From Geothrix sp. PMB-07 (lineage in GTDB: Bacteria > Acidobacteriota > Holophagae > Holophagales > Holophagaceae): 64,000 bases of DNA. Below, in pieces: positions 44,976 through 53,600 of this stretch. Position numbers and translations under genes: made by a program. The DNA lies in NCBI RefSeq assembly GCF_030758935.1, contig NZ_CP132333.1, forward strand, positions 3,720,992 through 3,784,991, read 5' to 3'. A model generated the notes under the pieces. It ran no database searches. It had not been told where the DNA came from and saw only the letters and a program-made list of their open reading frames with translations. Every line of letters begins with the position of its first letter. Within the stretch, counting starts at the first letter, position 1.

Positions 44976-47900
44976 ATGTCCCAGAGCCGGATGTCTCCGG
45001 GAAACCCTCCCGATTCCACCCTGGTTCCTGGACAACCCATGCTTTCTTCCACGGCCATCACCCCCAGCACGGCGGCCCTCCTCGCCTTCGCGCGCCTGGC
45101 GCAGGGGCACCTGGGAGAAGACGACCTGCTGCTGGAGGCAGAGGCGGATGGCGGTCTGCGAAGCGCTTCCCTTCAACTGGGTGAAGGCCCCTCGACACAG
45201 ATAACCGCCGAGACCCTGGCCCTTCAACTCGGACGCCCCGAGGCCTTCGCGCTCACCGCGAAAACCTCGGCGGAGGGCATGCCCTTTCGCGGGCGCATCC
45301 AGATCAGCGGCCAGGAGGCCCGGCTGCAGATGGAAGCCGGCGCGACACCCCCCATGACGCCCTGGATCCTGCGTCACTTCAGTCGACTGTACCGATTGAT
45401 TCTGGACGGGCCCGAATCCGCCTTGGAGGGGCTGTCCATGCTGGATGACGAAGAGCGGGCCGTGCTGCTGGGCCCCTTCTCCGGCCCGGCCTTCGATCCT
45501 GAACTGAGCACGCCGGGATCCCTGGCCGACCTCTTCGCGGCCACCCTACGCCGTCATGGGGCCCTGCCCGCCATCGAAGAGGATGGTCGAACCTGGACCT
45601 ATGCCGAGCTGGATGCCTTGGCAGAGGCCATTGCCCTCGGCCTTCGGCAACGAGGCCTGGGCCAGGGTTCCCTGGTGGGGCACTGGATGCCCCGCGGGCT
45701 GCAGGCCTACGCGGCCCTGCTGGGAATCCTCAAGAGCGGAGCCGCCTACGTGCCCCTGGACCCCGGCCTTCCTCCGGCCCGCGTCCGGCAGGTGGCCCTG
45801 GAATGCGGCATGCACCTGCTGCTGGCTTCGCCCTCGCTGGGAACCGTTCCCGATCTGCCCTGCTCCCAGGTCGATTCCACCGCTTTGGGCGCCGGGGGCA
45901 CAGAGAACGAACCTGCTTCCGTCGGCCCCGGGGCCGAGGATCTGGCCTACGTCATCTTCACCTCCGGCTCCACGGGCACGCCCAAGGGTGTGCCCATCAC
46001 CCACCTTGCAGCCTGCACGCTGGTGCGGGCCGAGCAGCGGCTCTTCGCGCCGCATGCAGAGGACCGCATCTTTCAGGGTTTTTCCCTGGCCTTCGACGCT
46101 TCGGTGGAAGAGCTCTGGCTGGCATGGGCCAGCGGGGCCTGCCTGATTGCGGGCACGCCCGCGCTGATGCAGTCGGGACCGGATCTTGGGAAGCGACTCA
46201 CCGAAGCCGGAATCACCGTGCTGTCCACGGTGCCCACGCTGCTGGGCCTCCTCGCGGACCGCATTCCCACCCTTCGCCTGCTCATCCTCGGGGGCGAAGC
46301 CTGTCCTGAAGATCTGGTGGCCCGCTGGTGGCGCCCCGACCTCCGGCTGGTGAACACCTATGGCCCCACGGAGGCCACGGTCATCTCCACCTGGACCGAT
46401 CTGAGGCCCGGACAGGCCGTCACCATCGGCAAGGCCGTGCCCAATGACCGGGTCTACGTGCTGGATGCCGAGAGGCGCCTGTGCCCCATCGGAGTGCCCG
46501 GGGAGCTGCACCTTTCAGGAGCGGGCCTGTCCCGGGGCTACCTGGGTCGGCCCGATCTCACGGCCGAACGATTCATCCCGAATCCTTTCTCGGATGGGCC
46601 CCTCACCGAGCGCCTCTACCGCACCGGGGATCGCGTGCGCTTCAACGCTGACGGAGATCTAGAATTCCTCGGTCGCATCGACACCCAGGTGAAGCTGCGG
46701 GGGTTCCGCATCGAGCTGGAGGAAATCGAAGCCGCGCTCCGCGTGGAAGCAGAGGTTGTGGCCGCAGCGGTCACGCTCTGGAAGGCGGATGACCCCGAGC
46801 GACTGGTAGCCTACGTCGTTCTGCAGCCAGGAGCCCTCTTCGATGCGGATCGCCTGTTGCGGGCCCTGCGCCAGCGCCTGCCCAGCTACATGGTGCCTGC
46901 CTCCATCGATGCCCTGGCGGAGCTGCCCACCCTCGCCAGCGGGAAGCTGGACCGGAAGCGCCTGCCCGCGCCCACCCGGCGACGGGCCCTCCCATCCACC
47001 GAGAGCGATGCACTGACACCCACGCAGAAGCGGCTGCGCGAACAGTGGGCGCGCCTCTTCCAGGGCCGTGCACCGGGCTTGGATGAGGATTTCTTCCGCG
47101 ATCTGGGCGGGCATTCGCTGTTGGCCGCGGCCATGGTTTCAGAGCTTCGTCAGCACGCCGGATTCGAGAGCCTGGCAGTGCCCGATGTGTACGCCTTTCC
47201 CACCCTGCGCGTTCTGGCCGCGGAACTGGATGCCCGCCAGGAATCGGGGCCCGTCTCCGATCAGGCGCAGCTTCCCCCCGCGGAACCACTGCCGGCCTGG
47301 CGCTATGGGCTCTGCGTCCTGGCCCAGCTCCTGTCGCTCTATCCCCTGCTGGGGTTCTACGCGCTGCAGTGGCTCAGCCCCTATCTCGTCTACAGCTGGA
47401 GCCAGGATCACGACACGTCACGCTTCCTGGGCATCAGCGCGGCCCTGCTGTCGCTGACCCTCATCTATCCCGCCATGTTCGTGCTTTCCATCGCCGCGAA
47501 GTGGCTGCTGCTGGGCCGCATCAAACCCGGACGCCACCGCATCTGGGGCCTCTATTATTGGCGCTGGTGGCTGACCCAGCGGATCATCGCCGCGGCGCCC
47601 CTGGACTACCTGGTGGAATCCCCCTGGCTGGCCTTGTACTTCCGCCTCATGGGCGCCCGCATCGGCAGCGGCGTGCACCTGGCCACCACCTCCCTCGCGG
47701 CGTTTGATCTCACCGACATCGGCGACGAAGCCAGCATCGGCCAGGATGCGCGACTGAGCGGCTACACCCTGGAGGATGGCTTCCTGGAGATCGGCCCCAT
47801 CCGCATCGGACGCCGCTGCTACGTGGGCAACCGCTCCATCCTGTGCGCCGGTTCCATCATGGAGGATGGCGCCATTCTGGAAGACCTGAGCCTGCTGCCA

Positions 47901-49430
47901 ACCGGCGCACGGATCGCCACGGGCCAGCACTGGACGGGCTCACCGGCCCGGCCCCTGCCGCCCACGGCCACGGATCGCACGCGCCTGACCCAGGATCTGC
48001 CCCGCCCCTCTCGAGCACGGCGTATGGGCATCGCTGCCGTTCAGGCCCTGGGGGCCTGCATGATTCCCATGGCCTTCCTCCTCGCCATCTTCCCGGGCCT
48101 GATCCTCATCAACGAGCTCTACGCCGCCACGCCGGGCTACTTCGCCTACCTGGTGGTGGCGCCCGTGGTGGCCCTTTCCTTCGTGGTGCTGCTCGCCCTG
48201 GAGATCGCCGCCGCCAAGTGGCTGCTGGTGGGGCGCGTGAAGCCCGGAACTTACGACCTGAACAGCGGCTTCATCCTGCGCAAATGGTACGTGGACCGCC
48301 TCATGAGTGTGGGCCTCGATCTGCTGGCGCCGCTCTACGCCACCCTGTATCTGGCCCCATGGTTCCGCTTGCTGGGCGCGAAGTTGGGGGCTTGGGCCGA
48401 GGTGTCCACCGCCGGTTCGGGATGCCCGGACCTGCTCGAGATCGGGGACGAAAGCTTCATCGCCGACTGTGTGTCCTTCGGTCCCCCGCGCGTGGATCTG
48501 GGTCGCGTCACCCTCGCGGCCACCCAAGTGGGACGCCGCGCGTTTGTGGGCAACAGCGCGCTGATCCCCTCCGGGACCGTCCTCGGAGACAGCGTACTGG
48601 TGGGCGTCTTGTCCGTGCCTCCCATCGATCCCCTGGAGGCCGCCCGCGCCGACAGTTCCTGGCTGGGCTCCCCGGCCATCTACCTGCCGCACCGGCAGGA
48701 GAGTGCCACTTTTGGCGAAGCAGCCACGTTCCGGCCGCCCAAGCGGATGATTCTCCTGCGGGCCTTCATCGAGCAGTTCCGGGTCCTCGCGCCCGTCGCC
48801 GGATTCGTGGTGATCACCAGCCTGCTGCTCACCGCCCTCACGGAAATCGAGGAAGCCACCTCGCTCGGGACCGCGGCCCTCTCCCTGCCCCTCCTCTATT
48901 TCGCCGGCGGCTTGGCGGCCTGCCTGTTCGTGGTGGCGGTCAAGTGGGCTGTCATCGGTCACTACAAGCCGAGCGAGAAGCCCCTCTGGTGCAGCTTCAT
49001 CTGGCGCACGGAACTGGTGAGCGGGCTGCATGAAAACCTGGCGGATTCCTGGCTGCTCCGCTTGCTCGCGGGCACGCCCCTGGTGCCGCTGTACTTCCGC
49101 CTATTGGGCGCCCGCATCGGCCGCCGCGTCTGCATGGAGAGTACCTGGCTGACGGAATACGATCTCGTGGACATCGGCGATGGCGCCCAGCTGAACTCCG
49201 ATTGCACCATCCAGACCCACCTCTTCGAGGACCGGGTGATGAAGATGGATCGCATCCACCTCGGACCTGGATGTTCCGTGGGCATGGATTCGGTGGTGCT
49301 CTACGGTTCGCGCCTGGAGGCTGGCTCGGTTCTCGGCGATCTGTCGCTGGTGATGAAGGGGGAATCCCTGCCCGTCAGCACCCGCTGGGAAGGTTCACCG
49401 GCGCGGCCTTCCCCAAGGGGGCGGAGATGA
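44976..49430 (+). CDS. Pls-like nonribosomal peptide synthetase (A-T plus three tandem membrane/LbH modules)
   Basis: A 1484-aa single-module synthetase. After about 175 poorly conserved residues comes an adenylation domain: A3 YVIFTSGSTGTPKGVPITH (about 325-343), A4 FDASVEELW, A5 NTYGPTEAT, A8 GRIDTQVKLRGFRIEL and A10 GKLDRKRLP. A carrier domain follows with GGHSLL (Ser714). There is no condensation or thioesterase domain. The rest is three tandem repeats of about 230 aa, each with hydrophobic helices, a KWxxxG-x-x-KP motif, LYFRLxGAxIG and hexapeptide-helix turns ending in WxGSPA (ending near 47960, 48700 and 49430). This is the layout of epsilon-poly-lysine synthetase (Pls). The hand-read pocket is D-A-E-S-I-G-T-V-I-K, lysine-like. 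Start at 44991 or 45039 is possible. Confidence 0.85.
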   Translation: MSQSRMSPGNPPDSTLVPGQPMLSSTAITPSTAALLAFARLAQGHLGEDDLLLEAEADGGLRSASLQLGEGPSTQITAETLALQLGRPEAFALTAKTSAEGMPFRGRIQISGQEARLQMEAGATPPMTPWILRHFSRLYRLILDGPESALEGLSMLDDEERAVLLGPFSGPAFDPELSTPGSLADLFAATLRRHGALPAIEEDGRTWTYAELDALAEAIALGLRQRGLGQGSLVGHWMPRGLQAYAALLGILKSGAAYVPLDPGLPPARVRQVALECGMHLLLASPSLGTVPDLPCSQVDSTALGAGGTENEPASVGPGAEDLAYVIFTSGSTGTPKGVPITHLAACTLVRAEQRLFAPHAEDRIFQGFSLAFDASVEELWLAWASGACLIAGTPALMQSGPDLGKRLTEAGITVLSTVPTLLGLLADRIPTLRLLILGGEACPEDLVARWWRPDLRLVNTYGPTEATVISTWTDLRPGQAVTIGKAVPNDRVYVLDAERRLCPIGVPGELHLSGAGLSRGYLGRPDLTAERFIPNPFSDGPLTERLYRTGDRVRFNADGDLEFLGRIDTQVKLRGFRIELEEIEAALRVEAEVVAAAVTLWKADDPERLVAYVVLQPGALFDADRLLRALRQRLPSYMVPASIDALAELPTLASGKLDRKRLPAPTRRRALPSTESDALTPTQKRLREQWARLFQGRAPGLDEDFFRDLGGHSLLAAAMVSELRQHAGFESLAVPDVYAFPTLRVLAAELDARQESGPVSDQAQLPPAEPLPAWRYGLCVLAQLLSLYPLLGFYALQWLSPYLVYSWSQDHDTSRFLGISAALLSLTLIYPAMFVLSIAAKWLLLGRIKPGRHRIWGLYYWRWWLTQRIIAAAPLDYLVESPWLALYFRLMGARIGSGVHLATTSLAAFDLTDIGDEASIGQDARLSGYTLEDGFLEIGPIRIGRRCYVGNRSILCAGSIMEDGAILEDLSLLPTGARIATGQHWTGSPARPLPPTATDRTRLTQDLPRPSRARRMGIAAVQALGACMIPMAFLLAIFPGLILINELYAATPGYFAYLVVAPVVALSFVVLLALEIAAAKWLLVGRVKPGTYDLNSGFILRKWYVDRLMSVGLDLLAPLYATLYLAPWFRLLGAKLGAWAEVSTAGSGCPDLLEIGDESFIADCVSFGPPRVDLGRVTLAATQVGRRAFVGNSALIPSGTVLGDSVLVGVLSVPPIDPLEAARADSSWLGSPAIYLPHRQESATFGEAATFRPPKRMILLRAFIEQFRVLAPVAGFVVITSLLLTALTEIEEATSLGTAALSLPLLYFAGGLAACLFVVAVKWAVIGHYKPSEKPLWCSFIWRTELVSGLHENLADSWLLRLLAGTPLVPLYFRLLGARIGRRVCMESTWLTEYDLVDIGDGAQLNSDCTIQTHLFEDRVMKMDRIHLGPGCSVGMDSVVLYGSRLEAGSVLGDLSLVMKGESLPVSTRWEGSPARPSPRGRR

Positions 49431-49996
49431 TGCCCGTGCCTCTGGATGCTTCGAGCGCAGACGCAAGTCGGAGTCATCCCCTGGAATATGCGGTTCACGT
49501 TTCAGATGCCAGCGACATCTCCATCAACGGTCTGATTGAGCTGGAACCGGACGCCTGCGGGCGGCCCAGGGCCCTGGGTGCGGAAGGACAGCCCGTATCC
49601 ATCAGCACCTCGCGAACCACCGGGGCGCGGGTCGTCGCGTGGGCGGAGCGGGGCCGGATTGGCGTCGATCTGGAATGCCTGGCGCCCTCGGATGCCCTGG
49701 AGGCGGCCTCGGCCTGCTTCCTCCCCCAGGAACGCGCCTGGGCCGACACCCTACCGCTGCAGGAACGCTGGCACGGACACCTGCTTCTCTGGACGGCCAA
49801 GGAAGCCCTGCTGAAAGCCCTGGGCCAGGGCTTCGCCTTCGGCCTGGATCAGATCGAACTCGAACCCCTGGGCGGCCATGCTCTGCGATTGCGCAGCCTC
49901 TGTGGCAGCGCGCAACTGGCCCAGGGCTGGCGCATCAATCATCAGGTGCGCGACCTGGCCGGACAGAGATACCTGATCGCCATCGCCCTGGGTTGA
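49427..49996 (+). CDS. Sfp-type 4'-phosphopantetheinyl transferase
   Basis: A 189-aa enzyme that moves phosphopantetheine from CoA to a carrier-protein serine. The magnesium site is visible as RIGVDLECLAP, and the second signature is WTAKEALLKALGQG. It is somewhat shorter than Sfp (about 225 aa). Its ATG overlaps the stop of the NRPS gene (ATGA) with AAGGGGG upstream, so it is almost certainly dedicated to activating Ser714 of that protein. An ATG one codon later is the alternative start. Confidence 0.88.
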   Translation: MMPVPLDASSADASRSHPLEYAVHVSDASDISINGLIELEPDACGRPRALGAEGQPVSISTSRTTGARVVAWAERGRIGVDLECLAPSDALEAASACFLPQERAWADTLPLQERWHGHLLLWTAKEALLKALGQGFAFGLDQIELEPLGGHALRLRSLCGSAQLAQGWRINHQVRDLAGQRYLIAIALG

Positions 49997-50485
49997 TCAG
50001 CCGAAGATCGAAAGGGAACTGTCGGATCCGCCTGAATCGTTCAGGGCATCGAAGAGCGTGGGTGCTTTCGAGCCCTGAAGCAGGGTCAGCAGCGCGGCCG
50101 GATTCGAGTTCTTGCTCTGGTTGTTCATCAGGGCCGTGAGCAGGGCGGAATTGGCCCCGGTGGCGTCGTAGGTGGCCGAACTGCCCTGCAGGCTGCCCAG
50201 CACCGTGGCCAGGCTCTTGGGATTCTCTTTGAAATAGGTCTTCAGTTTGTCGATGTCGCCGGAGACATCCTTTTGCGTCGTGAGGAGGTCACTGAGGGCC
50301 TTGGTCACCTCCTCAGGCGCCTTGGTGAGCTGCTGGGCAGCCGGTGAGAGCGTCATCAAGTCCCCCAGGAGGCCTGATAGCCCGCTGGCATCCTGGGTCG
50401 TGGAGGATCCGATGGCATTCAGCTGCTGCAGGAGCAGGGTGCCGATGCTCTGGGATTGATCCGAACCGATGGGCGTGAGGCTCAT
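49997..50485 (-). CDS. Hypothetical protein, Leu/Ser-rich
   Basis: I do not recognise this 162-aa protein. It begins MSLTPIGSDQSQSIGTLLLQ and has no signal peptide or membrane segment. It is rich in Ser, Thr, Asn and Leu, with helical stretches (LSPAAQQLTKAPEEVTKALSDLL) and a low-complexity C-terminus (NDSGGSDSSLSIFG). The ATG at 50485 has AGGAG 7 nt upstream. It converges end to end with the transferase gene, with no gap between the stops. Composition resembles secreted or surface-appendage proteins lacking a Sec signal, but that is only an impression. Confidence 0.7.
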   Translation of the reverse strand: MSLTPIGSDQSQSIGTLLLQQLNAIGSSTTQDASGLSGLLGDLMTLSPAAQQLTKAPEEVTKALSDLLTTQKDVSGDIDKLKTYFKENPKSLATVLGSLQGSSATYDATGANSALLTALMNNQSKNSNPAALLTLLQGSKAPTLFDALNDSGGSDSSLSIFG

Positions 50486-50636
50486 GCGTGCTCCTGGGCA
50501 GCCTTTGCAGGCGGAGAAGCCATGAGCAAGATGCCCGCCAAACCCGCCCACAGTGGCATCCAGGGCCATGCATGGTGCGTCGGCTGACGCCATTCCAAGC
50601 ACCCAGGCGATTCCTGCCTCGGGTACACTTCCGCCC

Positions 50637-50687
50637 ATGCCCACCCAGCGTGTCAGCCGTACCCCCGGGGTCCAGCCGTGGATGTAA
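50637..50687 (+). promoter_or_regulatory. 16-codon upstream ORF overlapping the next gene
   Basis: A TACACT box at 50624-50629 is followed after 7 nt by an ATG at 50637 that opens a 16-codon frame (MPTQRVSRTPGVQPWM) ending in TAA at 50685-50687. It overlaps the GTG start (50678) of the 1134-aa gene in another frame. This layout could couple translation of the large gene to that of the leader. It is unproven. Confidence 0.3.
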
Positions 50688-53600
50688 CGACCTTTCTCGG
50701 GGCGCATCGCTATGCCTGGCTTCAGGAGCTGGGGCGCCACCCGACCTGCTCGTGGCACCTCCTGCGCCGCGAATCCGACGGCAGCCGATTCCTGGCGCAG
50801 GTCTGGTCACCCCGTCCTTCAGATCGGGACATGGATCACATCCGGGACACCTACCTTTCCCGGTTCCTGGATGCTTCACCCCTGGACCCCGTGAACAGCC
50901 ACCTCGGTTTCGACGAGGAACAGGCCTGGTACCTCCAGGCCATTCAAGGCATGCCCCTATCTCGCCTCTGGGCGGGCTGGGGAGAGCCTCAGCGTGCGGC
51001 CCTGTTGGAGCACCTCGGGTCTTTGGTGGCCCAGGATCCCCATCCCCGTCTGCTCCATCCCGAGGCCATCACCTTCAGGCCCGGCCTGACCCAGATTCCA
51101 CGCGTGATCGGGGAGGTCCCCTGGAATCTGGAGGCCGTGCCCGGCTTCCTTCCCCAGACCGCGCCCACACCCGCCCTCTCGGAAGAGCTTCCCTGGAAGC
51201 TGCCCAGGGACCTGTCGGAGCCCCATTCCCGACCAATGCGGGGGCGCGGCCAGGAGCTCCCCTACCTCAAATCGCTGATGCTGGGTTTCAGCGCGCCCAT
51301 CCCCATGGAGCGCATCGTGCTGCTTCAGGGCGAAGAAGGCGTGGGCAAGGAGCACCTGGCCTCCTGGGCATGTGCCGTGGCCGAAGGCGAGGGCATCTGG
51401 GTGCACCACCTGGCCGCCTCGGACCAGGAACCCCCCGGACGCTTCCTGGGCCGCATGGTGGATGCCCTGCTATCAGGCAGCGAAGTGGATTTCTATGCTG
51501 AGCGGCCTGAGGCAGCCAAGGCCCTGTCGCTCCGCGTGCAGGCCTTCTCCTTCCTCACCGGCGGGCGCCATGTGCATGGACAGGATGCCGGCCCTGCGCC
51601 GGAAGAGGTGCGGGCGGCCCTGGAGGCCCTGGATTTTGCAGGCCTCCAACAGCGGCGCCTCATCCATTTGTCCGGCCTGGACCGGGCCACGCCGGGCGTG
51701 CTGTCGCTGGTTCGCGAGCTGGTGGAACGATCCACCTTGCCCTGGCTCCTCTCCCTCACCACCGGCGCCCAAGGCGTTGGCCTGAAGCCCTTCATCGCCC
51801 AACTGCGCTCCGAAGCCGCCGCGGCGGTGGTGGGCGTCAATCGCCTGGAAGACCGGGATCTGCGGCTCGTCCTGAACGATCTCCTGGGGCCGCACGAACT
51901 CCCCGAGCCGTTCCAGGCGGATCTGATTTCCCAGAGCCTCGGCAATCCGGGCCTGCTGCGGAACTTCCTGGAGCTGGCCCAGCAATCCGGCGCCCTGTCC
52001 TGGGAGCGCGACCGCTGGATGCTGGCGCCAGGCCAGCGGGTGGCCCTGAAAGCCGAGGACGATCTCATGCGGCAGATCTTCCTGGGCCGTCTCCAACGCC
52101 TCACGCCCGCCTCGGCCGCCCTCGTGCGCCTGCTGGCCCTCGGTGAGCGTCCGCTTCCCGCGCTGACGCTGCAGCGTCTGCTGGGCCTCCAGGAGGATGC
52201 CCTGGAGGACGCCATCCTCGGGGCCACAGCTTCTCAGCTGGTGGAATCCCAGCAGGGGCAATCCCTGATGCCCGAACCGCGGTGGCGGGAACTGGTGCTC
52301 GCCCACACACCCCAACCCGAACTCAAGCGCCTGGCCCGGGCCCTTTCAGCCGCCTTCCAGGAGCAGGGCTGGGATTGCCCCATTCCCCTGCAGTCCCTGG
52401 CTTCCGATGAGGCCACGGCCCTCGCCGCCGTGCTCGCCTCGCTCAAACAGGGGCCCCCAAGATCTCTCCAGGAAACCCTGCGGATCGTCAATCAGGCGCT
52501 TCAGCTGAAGCCTTCTCCGCTGCAGGAAGCGCGCCTGCGCGAACACCTGGCGGACGCCTGGGCCACCGGTGCCCGCGAGCCGGGTGAAACGTCGGAGCTT
52601 TCGCCCTCGGAAGAAGCCCTCGCCGCTCTGGCCCTCGCCCTCAAGGCCCTCGCCAAAGCCCCCCAGGAAGATGCCCTCCACCTCAAGGAAGCTCGGCTCT
52701 TCCGCAAACGGGCGCTCCTCCTGCTCCACCTCCGCCGCCCTGCGGAAGCCCAGGAAGCCCTTCAGGCCACCGCCGAGCGGTTGACCCACCATCCGCACCA
52801 TGCCGAGCAGGCCCGGCTCCGGCTGGCCCTGGGGCGGCTGCACTTGCTGCAAGGACACCTCACCAAGGGCATCCGCGCTCTGGAAGAGGGCCTCCACCCC
52901 CAGGCCGGCTTCAAACCCCAACCGCAGGATCAGGCGGCGCTTCTCCTGGCCCTGGGCCAGGCCCTGGGAGGCCAATCCCAGTTCCTCCGGGCCGCGGGAA
53001 TGCTGCAGTCAGCTCAGCGCATCCTGGAGCACAGCCAGGGTTTCCGCAGCCTGGTCTCGGTGCAGATCGCTCTGGCCGAGGTGCGGCTGGCCCAGGGACA
53101 ACCCGAAACCTGCGCCATTCTTCTCAGGGAGGCGCTGCAAACGGCCCGCATGCAGGGAGACACCCTCCTCCAGGCCAAGGGCCACCTCGCCCTGGGCATG
53201 GTGCGCAGCCTCCAGCAATGGCTGGGGCCCGCTCTGTCCCACCTGGACCGGGCCCTGAGCCGCGTCGAACCATCCGGCGATGCAGCGCAACGATCCATCA
53301 TCCAGATTTGGCGGGCTCGCACCTTCGCTGCTCTCGGTGACACCGTGGCCGCGGATCATGCGCAGTTCCAGGCCCTGGCAGCCCAGCCACCCGTTCTTGC
53401 TCCGGAAGAACAAGGGGACAACCTCTTCCTCCAGGGTGAAGTGGCCCATTTTCGAAGCGCTTGGCGCGACACCACCCGGCTCTACCGGTCTGCCGCAGAC
53501 GTCTATGAATCTTCGGGGCTGCTTTGGCGACAGCGCCTGGCCCTGCTGCTCTACAGCCAGGCGGTGGCGCGGGAGGCCCGGCAATCCAAGCGGGAAGCCC

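Follow-up and report, generated by a model that had tools for sequence, protein, structure and literature searches.

The locus and its two genes

The analyzed window, a stretch of 64,000 nucleotides from Geothrix sp. PMB-07, harbors a synthetase gene and a phosphopantetheinyl transferase (PPTase) gene that overlap on the forward strand (Table 1). The synthetase is composed of one adenylation (A) domain (AMP-binding, residues 189-523; AMP-binding_C, residues 583-657) and one carrier domain (PP-binding, residues 686-750), and is devoid of a functional condensation or thioesterase domain. Three pairs of hydrophobic transmembrane (TM) segments, six in total, alternate with three soluble hexapeptide repeats, as seen both in the sequence and in an AF2 model. 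Translation may in fact start at Met22 (45039), as similarity to relatives sets in near residue 21. The initial annotation had read this layout, including Ser714 as the carrier site, as Pls-like. In agreement, residues 783-1476 matched TIGR02353 with 672 bits as compared to the curated cut-off of 423, i.e., the Pls/PosA family rather than a family lacking Pls-type C-terminal modules. Thus, membership of the synthetase in the Pls/PosA family was confirmed at the sequence level. This family of cationic homo-poly(amino acid) (CHPA) synthetases is already known to be widespread and to include Gram-negative members.

Table 1. Features of the synthetase-PPTase locus (window coordinates).
Feature	Position	Strand	Remarks
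Pls/PosA-family single-module NRPS (CHPA synthetase)	44976-49430	+	1484 aa; TIGR02353 672 bits
Vestigial condensation-domain C-lobe and C-A linker	45039-45515	+	residues ~22-180; HHxxxDG lobe absent
Adenylation domain	45540-46946	+	residues 189-657
Carrier domain, 4'-phosphopantetheine site Ser714 (GGHS)	47031-47225	+	PF00550
Polymerization region, repeats C1, C2, C3	47277-49427	+	TM hairpin, helices and left-handed beta-helix each
QTHLFEDRVMK motif	49212-49244	+	residues 1413-1423, repeat C3; candidate active site
Split point in former linker	49410-49432	+	one base fewer than fused L086, aligned between 49422 and 49423; TGA overlapped by ATG
Phosphopantetheinyl transferase	49427-49996	+	189 aa; PF01648 62 bits (cut-off 25)

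In the host genome (one contig of 4.24 Mb), the synthetase is the sole TIGR02353 protein above the cut-off, and no PF00668 condensation domain was found. Four carrier domains are present; the three besides that of Ser714 sit in open frames of 96-169 aa. The synthetase-PPTase pair stands alone. In the relatives L003 and L076, the pair lies between cytochrome oxidase/cyoE and a gene of 1134 aa, followed by panB-panC. An exporter or self-protection gene was not recognized beside the pair, which counts against the explanation proposed below. A promoter scan and Rfam revealed nothing useful at the locus. Directly downstream of the PPTase gene, an ORF of 253 aa is located on the opposite strand (49997-50758).

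A condensation-domain relic at the N-terminus

A Pfam search of residues 1-190 gave no match. A profile of 16 homologues matched C-lobes and C-A linkers of the C domains of Txo2, SrfA-C and McyB with E-values down to 1.2e-16, part of the score stemming from the start of the A domain that the profile also spans (the match to Txo2, 6p1j, covers profile positions 9-212). The AF2 model of the N-terminus (pLDDT 85) aligned to C domains at Z 8-9 (VIA), and unrelated rows followed at Z 4-5. As judged from profile and model, the N-terminal ~150 aa is a relic of a condensation domain, namely its C-terminal lobe. Therefore, the synthetase either descends from a C-A-T module or recombined with one, and half of the C domain was kept. 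The earlier statement that a condensation domain is missing is correct functionally, the HHxxxDG half being absent, but not historically. The relic is common to the homologues L027, L032, L043, L050, L057, L058, L064, L078 and L081, most of which belong to the Bacteroidota.

The PPTase was split off a fused protein

The PPTase metal motifs GVDLE (D-x-E) and WTAKEALLK (K-E-x-x-x-K) are intact in the alignment. In the Sfp-type 'SHS' motif, this enzyme is missing the His, a residue with a role in PPTases, which counts against the proposed explanation. Only one other PPTase, AcpS-like and encoded at L002, was found in the host genome. The overlap of 4 bp noted at the outset was recovered as ATGA (49427-49430), but the transferase turned out to be more than a partner, as it corresponds to a domain of a fused protein. 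Twelve of the 13 full-length orthologues found among 47 genomes of the genus possess a fused PPTase, and the window holds the sole split one. In the fused orthologues, the synthetase ORF is extended by 189-201 aa with the PPTase in frame; this held for every intact Geothrix orthologue fetched. The phylogenetic tree placed the window protein within the fused clade, grouped with L076 at a support of 100/100; the protein of L003 (Geothrix limicola) is identical to that of G006 from the same genus over the tree region.

Three orthologues from the sister genus were compared. Two of them are accompanied by a separate overlapping PPTase gene (L159 and L160, the latter with a GTGA overlap), and no PPTase was found within about 1.5 kb of the third. 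All Acidobacteriota orthologues from outside the genus were unfused in a sample of 197 genomes, as were the homologues from other phyla, with a separate PPTase directly downstream or upstream in about twenty cases. Many homologues outside Geothrix lack a PPTase nearby, which counts against the explanation. In homologues with a DFEC-type pocket (L046, L059, L067, L070, L073 and L077), the PPTase gene lies directly upstream of the synthetase gene, not downstream.

Since the PPTase is fused in each of the 12 other full-length orthologues from Geothrix and is encoded separately in the sister genus, the arrangement in the window is, on sequence comparison, a secondary split caused by a single base in the variable linker. 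The fused Geothrix proteins are probably self-priming. A PPTase-fused Pls/PosA protein was not found described among the open-access papers searched.

The same fusion in all 12 relatives, together with a GGGGG run adjoining the junction, could also mean that the split stems from faulty sequencing or assembly and that the window species possesses the fused protein as well. A first frameshift scan raised 11 flags, mostly shadow ORFs; the one left after a codon-bias filter was a shadow ORF over an intact gene of 296 aa. Thus, comparison with a close relative over about 149 kb of coding DNA revealed no real frameshift, and an error is therefore possible, but not favored. Moreover, the split generates an exact stop-start overlap resembling the GTGA of the sister genus. 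We regard an error as unlikely, albeit as the most serious of the alternatives, and prefer a genuine secondary split.

The substrate pocket points to lysine

The pocket was derived by aligning the window protein with its homologues in MAFFT (94 rows) and reads DAESIGTVIK (D374, A375, E378, S417, I437, G439, T461, V469, I470 and K657), the same code that had previously been read by eye. It occurs exactly in 65 of the 94 rows, including all Geothrix orthologues, and DAESIGTVVK occurs in 11. The A domain of the Streptomyces epsilon-poly-lysine synthetase (7wew) shows DAESIGTVV at the same positions, the comparison comprising nine positions since Lys517 lies beyond the fragment searched. The only difference is Ile for Val at code position 9. 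Thus, the pocket match is even better than the initial annotation claimed, since the pocket differs by one Val/Ile exchange from 7wew rather than at two positions from a lysine-type code such as DAESIGSVCK.

It is known that Asp and Glu at code positions 1 and 3 are conserved in CHPAs and essential in PosA (PMC10522769), and both are present here (D374 and E378). Code position 2, which is Met in PosA and Ala in Pls, sets chain length; Ala marks Lys-type CHPA synthetases, and exchange to Ala in PosA raised lysine efficiency nearly tenfold (PMC10522769). The window protein has Ala at this position. Given the near-identity to 7wew and the PosA data on Asp, Glu and position 2, activation of L-lysine and a product of the epsilon-poly-L-lysine type are therefore the best prediction. 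That a Gram-negative bacterium may make poly-lysine, as proposed initially, is supported by pocket and family, but a Gram-negative CHPA synthetase as such is not new (PosA; PMC10522769). Lysine-type codes have previously been reported from many bacteria (PMC10522769), and a search of open-access papers for the pocket code strings returned nothing relevant.

Small pocket changes matter in this family: PosA has a related pocket, yet its preference for ornithine exceeds that for lysine more than 160-fold, and its Ser313 at code position 9 contacts the substrate (PMC10522769), where the window protein has Ile and the Streptomyces enzyme Val. Hence, the enzyme might be a CHPA synthetase that prefers ornithine, beta-lysine, arginine or a mix of basic amino acids. 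However, characterized non-lysine codes differ at several positions (DMEHNGTVSK for ornithine, DGESISVVNK for beta-lysine and DSECYGGVTK for an arginine-active enzyme), whereas the window protein agrees with 7wew at eight of the nine positions compared and has Ala at position 2. A monomer other than lysine is accordingly considered improbable, and L-lysine is retained as the predicted substrate.

Other pockets were observed among the relatives. A homologue from an Acidobacteria MAG (L080:8001-11960) carries DGESVSAVNK, which is close to the epsilon-poly-beta-lysine synthetase code DGESISVVNK. A second, divergent Pls/PosA paralogue, 37-38% identical and lacking a fused PPTase, exists in the genus (L098, L101, L102 and L103) and in the family (L163, L164 and L165). 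The four genus paralogues carry DSECYGGVTK; activation of L-arginine has been described for a Bdellovibrionales enzyme with this code (PMC10522769).

A conserved motif is restricted to the third repeat

The AF2 model of the C-terminal region (pLDDT 92.9, pTM 0.92) comprises three repeats in the same arrangement as published for PosA (PMC10522769). A solved structure of a Pls C-terminal region was found neither by sequence nor by fold search. Single repeats resemble hexapeptide acetyltransferases (LacA/Maa-type O/N-acetyltransferases) as well as gamma carbonic anhydrases, and phmmer with the C-terminal region retrieved mainly gamma carbonic anhydrase-like proteins, besides other hexapeptide matches. 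The motif QTHLFEDRVMK occurs in C3, whereas C1 and C2 lack it. Among 45 homologues from many phyla and with different pocket types, 42 have it unchanged; the variants are QTHLFEDRIMK (1/45) and QAHTFEDRVLK (2/45, in paralogues with the Arg-type code). Since conservation of the motif is unequal and confined to C3, a single candidate active site may be placed in or beside this repeat. His1415 may correspond to the catalytic His in acetyltransferases such as LacA and Maa.

An acyltransferase-like fold would also suit an enzyme transferring one or a few lysyl units to another acceptor, such as a lipid, a sugar or an amine, without formation of a homopolymer. The resemblance to O/N-acetyltransferases and gamma carbonic anhydrases fits such a role, but in Pls and PosA, C-terminal regions of this family support the formation of a homopolymer (PMC10522769). 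In addition, a gene of an acceptor pathway was not recognized beside the pair, the neighbors in the two flank-matched relatives being respiration and pantothenate genes. We consider transfer to another acceptor quite improbable, and polymerization remains the preferred reading.

Discussion

In the proposed mechanism, the PPTase would load phosphopantetheine onto Ser714. The A domain would adenylate L-lysine, with Glu378 and Thr461 toward the side-chain amine, and subsequently load the carrier. The membrane-bound C-terminal region would then link lysyl units via the side-chain amine to epsilon-poly-L-lysine or a close isopeptide, probably at one site in or beside the third beta-helix repeat, around QTHLFEDRVMK. 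Within the genus, the PPTase became the C-terminal domain of the synthetase; in the window species, the fusion was undone by loss of one linker base, and the resulting stop-start overlap could couple translation. Whereas family, domain architecture, pocket, conserved motif, fusion and split are evident from the sequence, this scheme predicts the substrate, the type of bond, the active site, translational coupling and any biological role. Taken as a whole, a synthetase with a dedicated PPTase making epsilon-poly-L-lysine or a close isopeptide, split from the fusion of its genus, is considered probable. A locus decaying after the split, with loss of the product, would be in line with the one-base loss that separates the domains and with the patchy occurrence of the gene (a match in 16 of 47 Geothrix genomes), but is very improbable given intact pocket, carrier and PPTase metal motifs and the dN/dS values relative to L086 (synthetase, 0.17; conserved PPTase domain, 0.32). 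The absence of the gene from the majority of Geothrix genomes also counts against the proposed explanation.

More tentatively, the Geothrix synthetases may be self-priming single chains (A-T-polymerase-PPTase) in which the condensation domain is half lost and isopeptide bonds arise at one asymmetric site of a pseudo-trimeric beta-helix in the membrane. The window would then show such a fusion on its way back to two overlapping genes. Three features were not found described among the open-access papers searched, namely the fusion and fission of the PPTase, the relic of the condensation domain and the asymmetry of C3.

The products of CHPA synthetases are believed to be antimicrobial polycations. 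For the question of how the membrane region forms the isopeptide bond, the asymmetric conservation of C3 offers a single short motif as a target for mutation. With its PPTase fused, a Pls would form a self-contained unit for poly-lysine production in heterologous hosts, and the occurrence of fused and split forms within a single genus provides a clean natural experiment for the study of gene fusion. The analysis also predicts a poly-lysine-like polymer from a genus of the Acidobacteriota; a product of this kind from Geothrix was not found among the open-access papers searched.

In comparison with known systems, the window protein shares the layout of A domain, carrier and three repeats with Streptomyces Pls (7wew) and its pocket except for Ile instead of Val at position 9. 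It differs by the N-terminal condensation relic, which is not seen in the 509-residue 7wew chain, and by the PPTase, which is adjacent here and fused in relatives. PosA, the delta-poly-L-ornithine synthetase of Acinetobacter baumannii (8g95/8g97), also comes from a Gram-negative host, belongs to the same family and has the Asp, Glu and Thr pocket residues, but its own pocket, DMEHNGTVSK, prefers ornithine (PMC10522769). The pfaBC homologues with a PPTase domain are likewise carrier-bearing biosynthetic enzymes with a PPTase domain of their own; unlike Pls and PosA, they are PUFA-synthase-like (PMC13291983).
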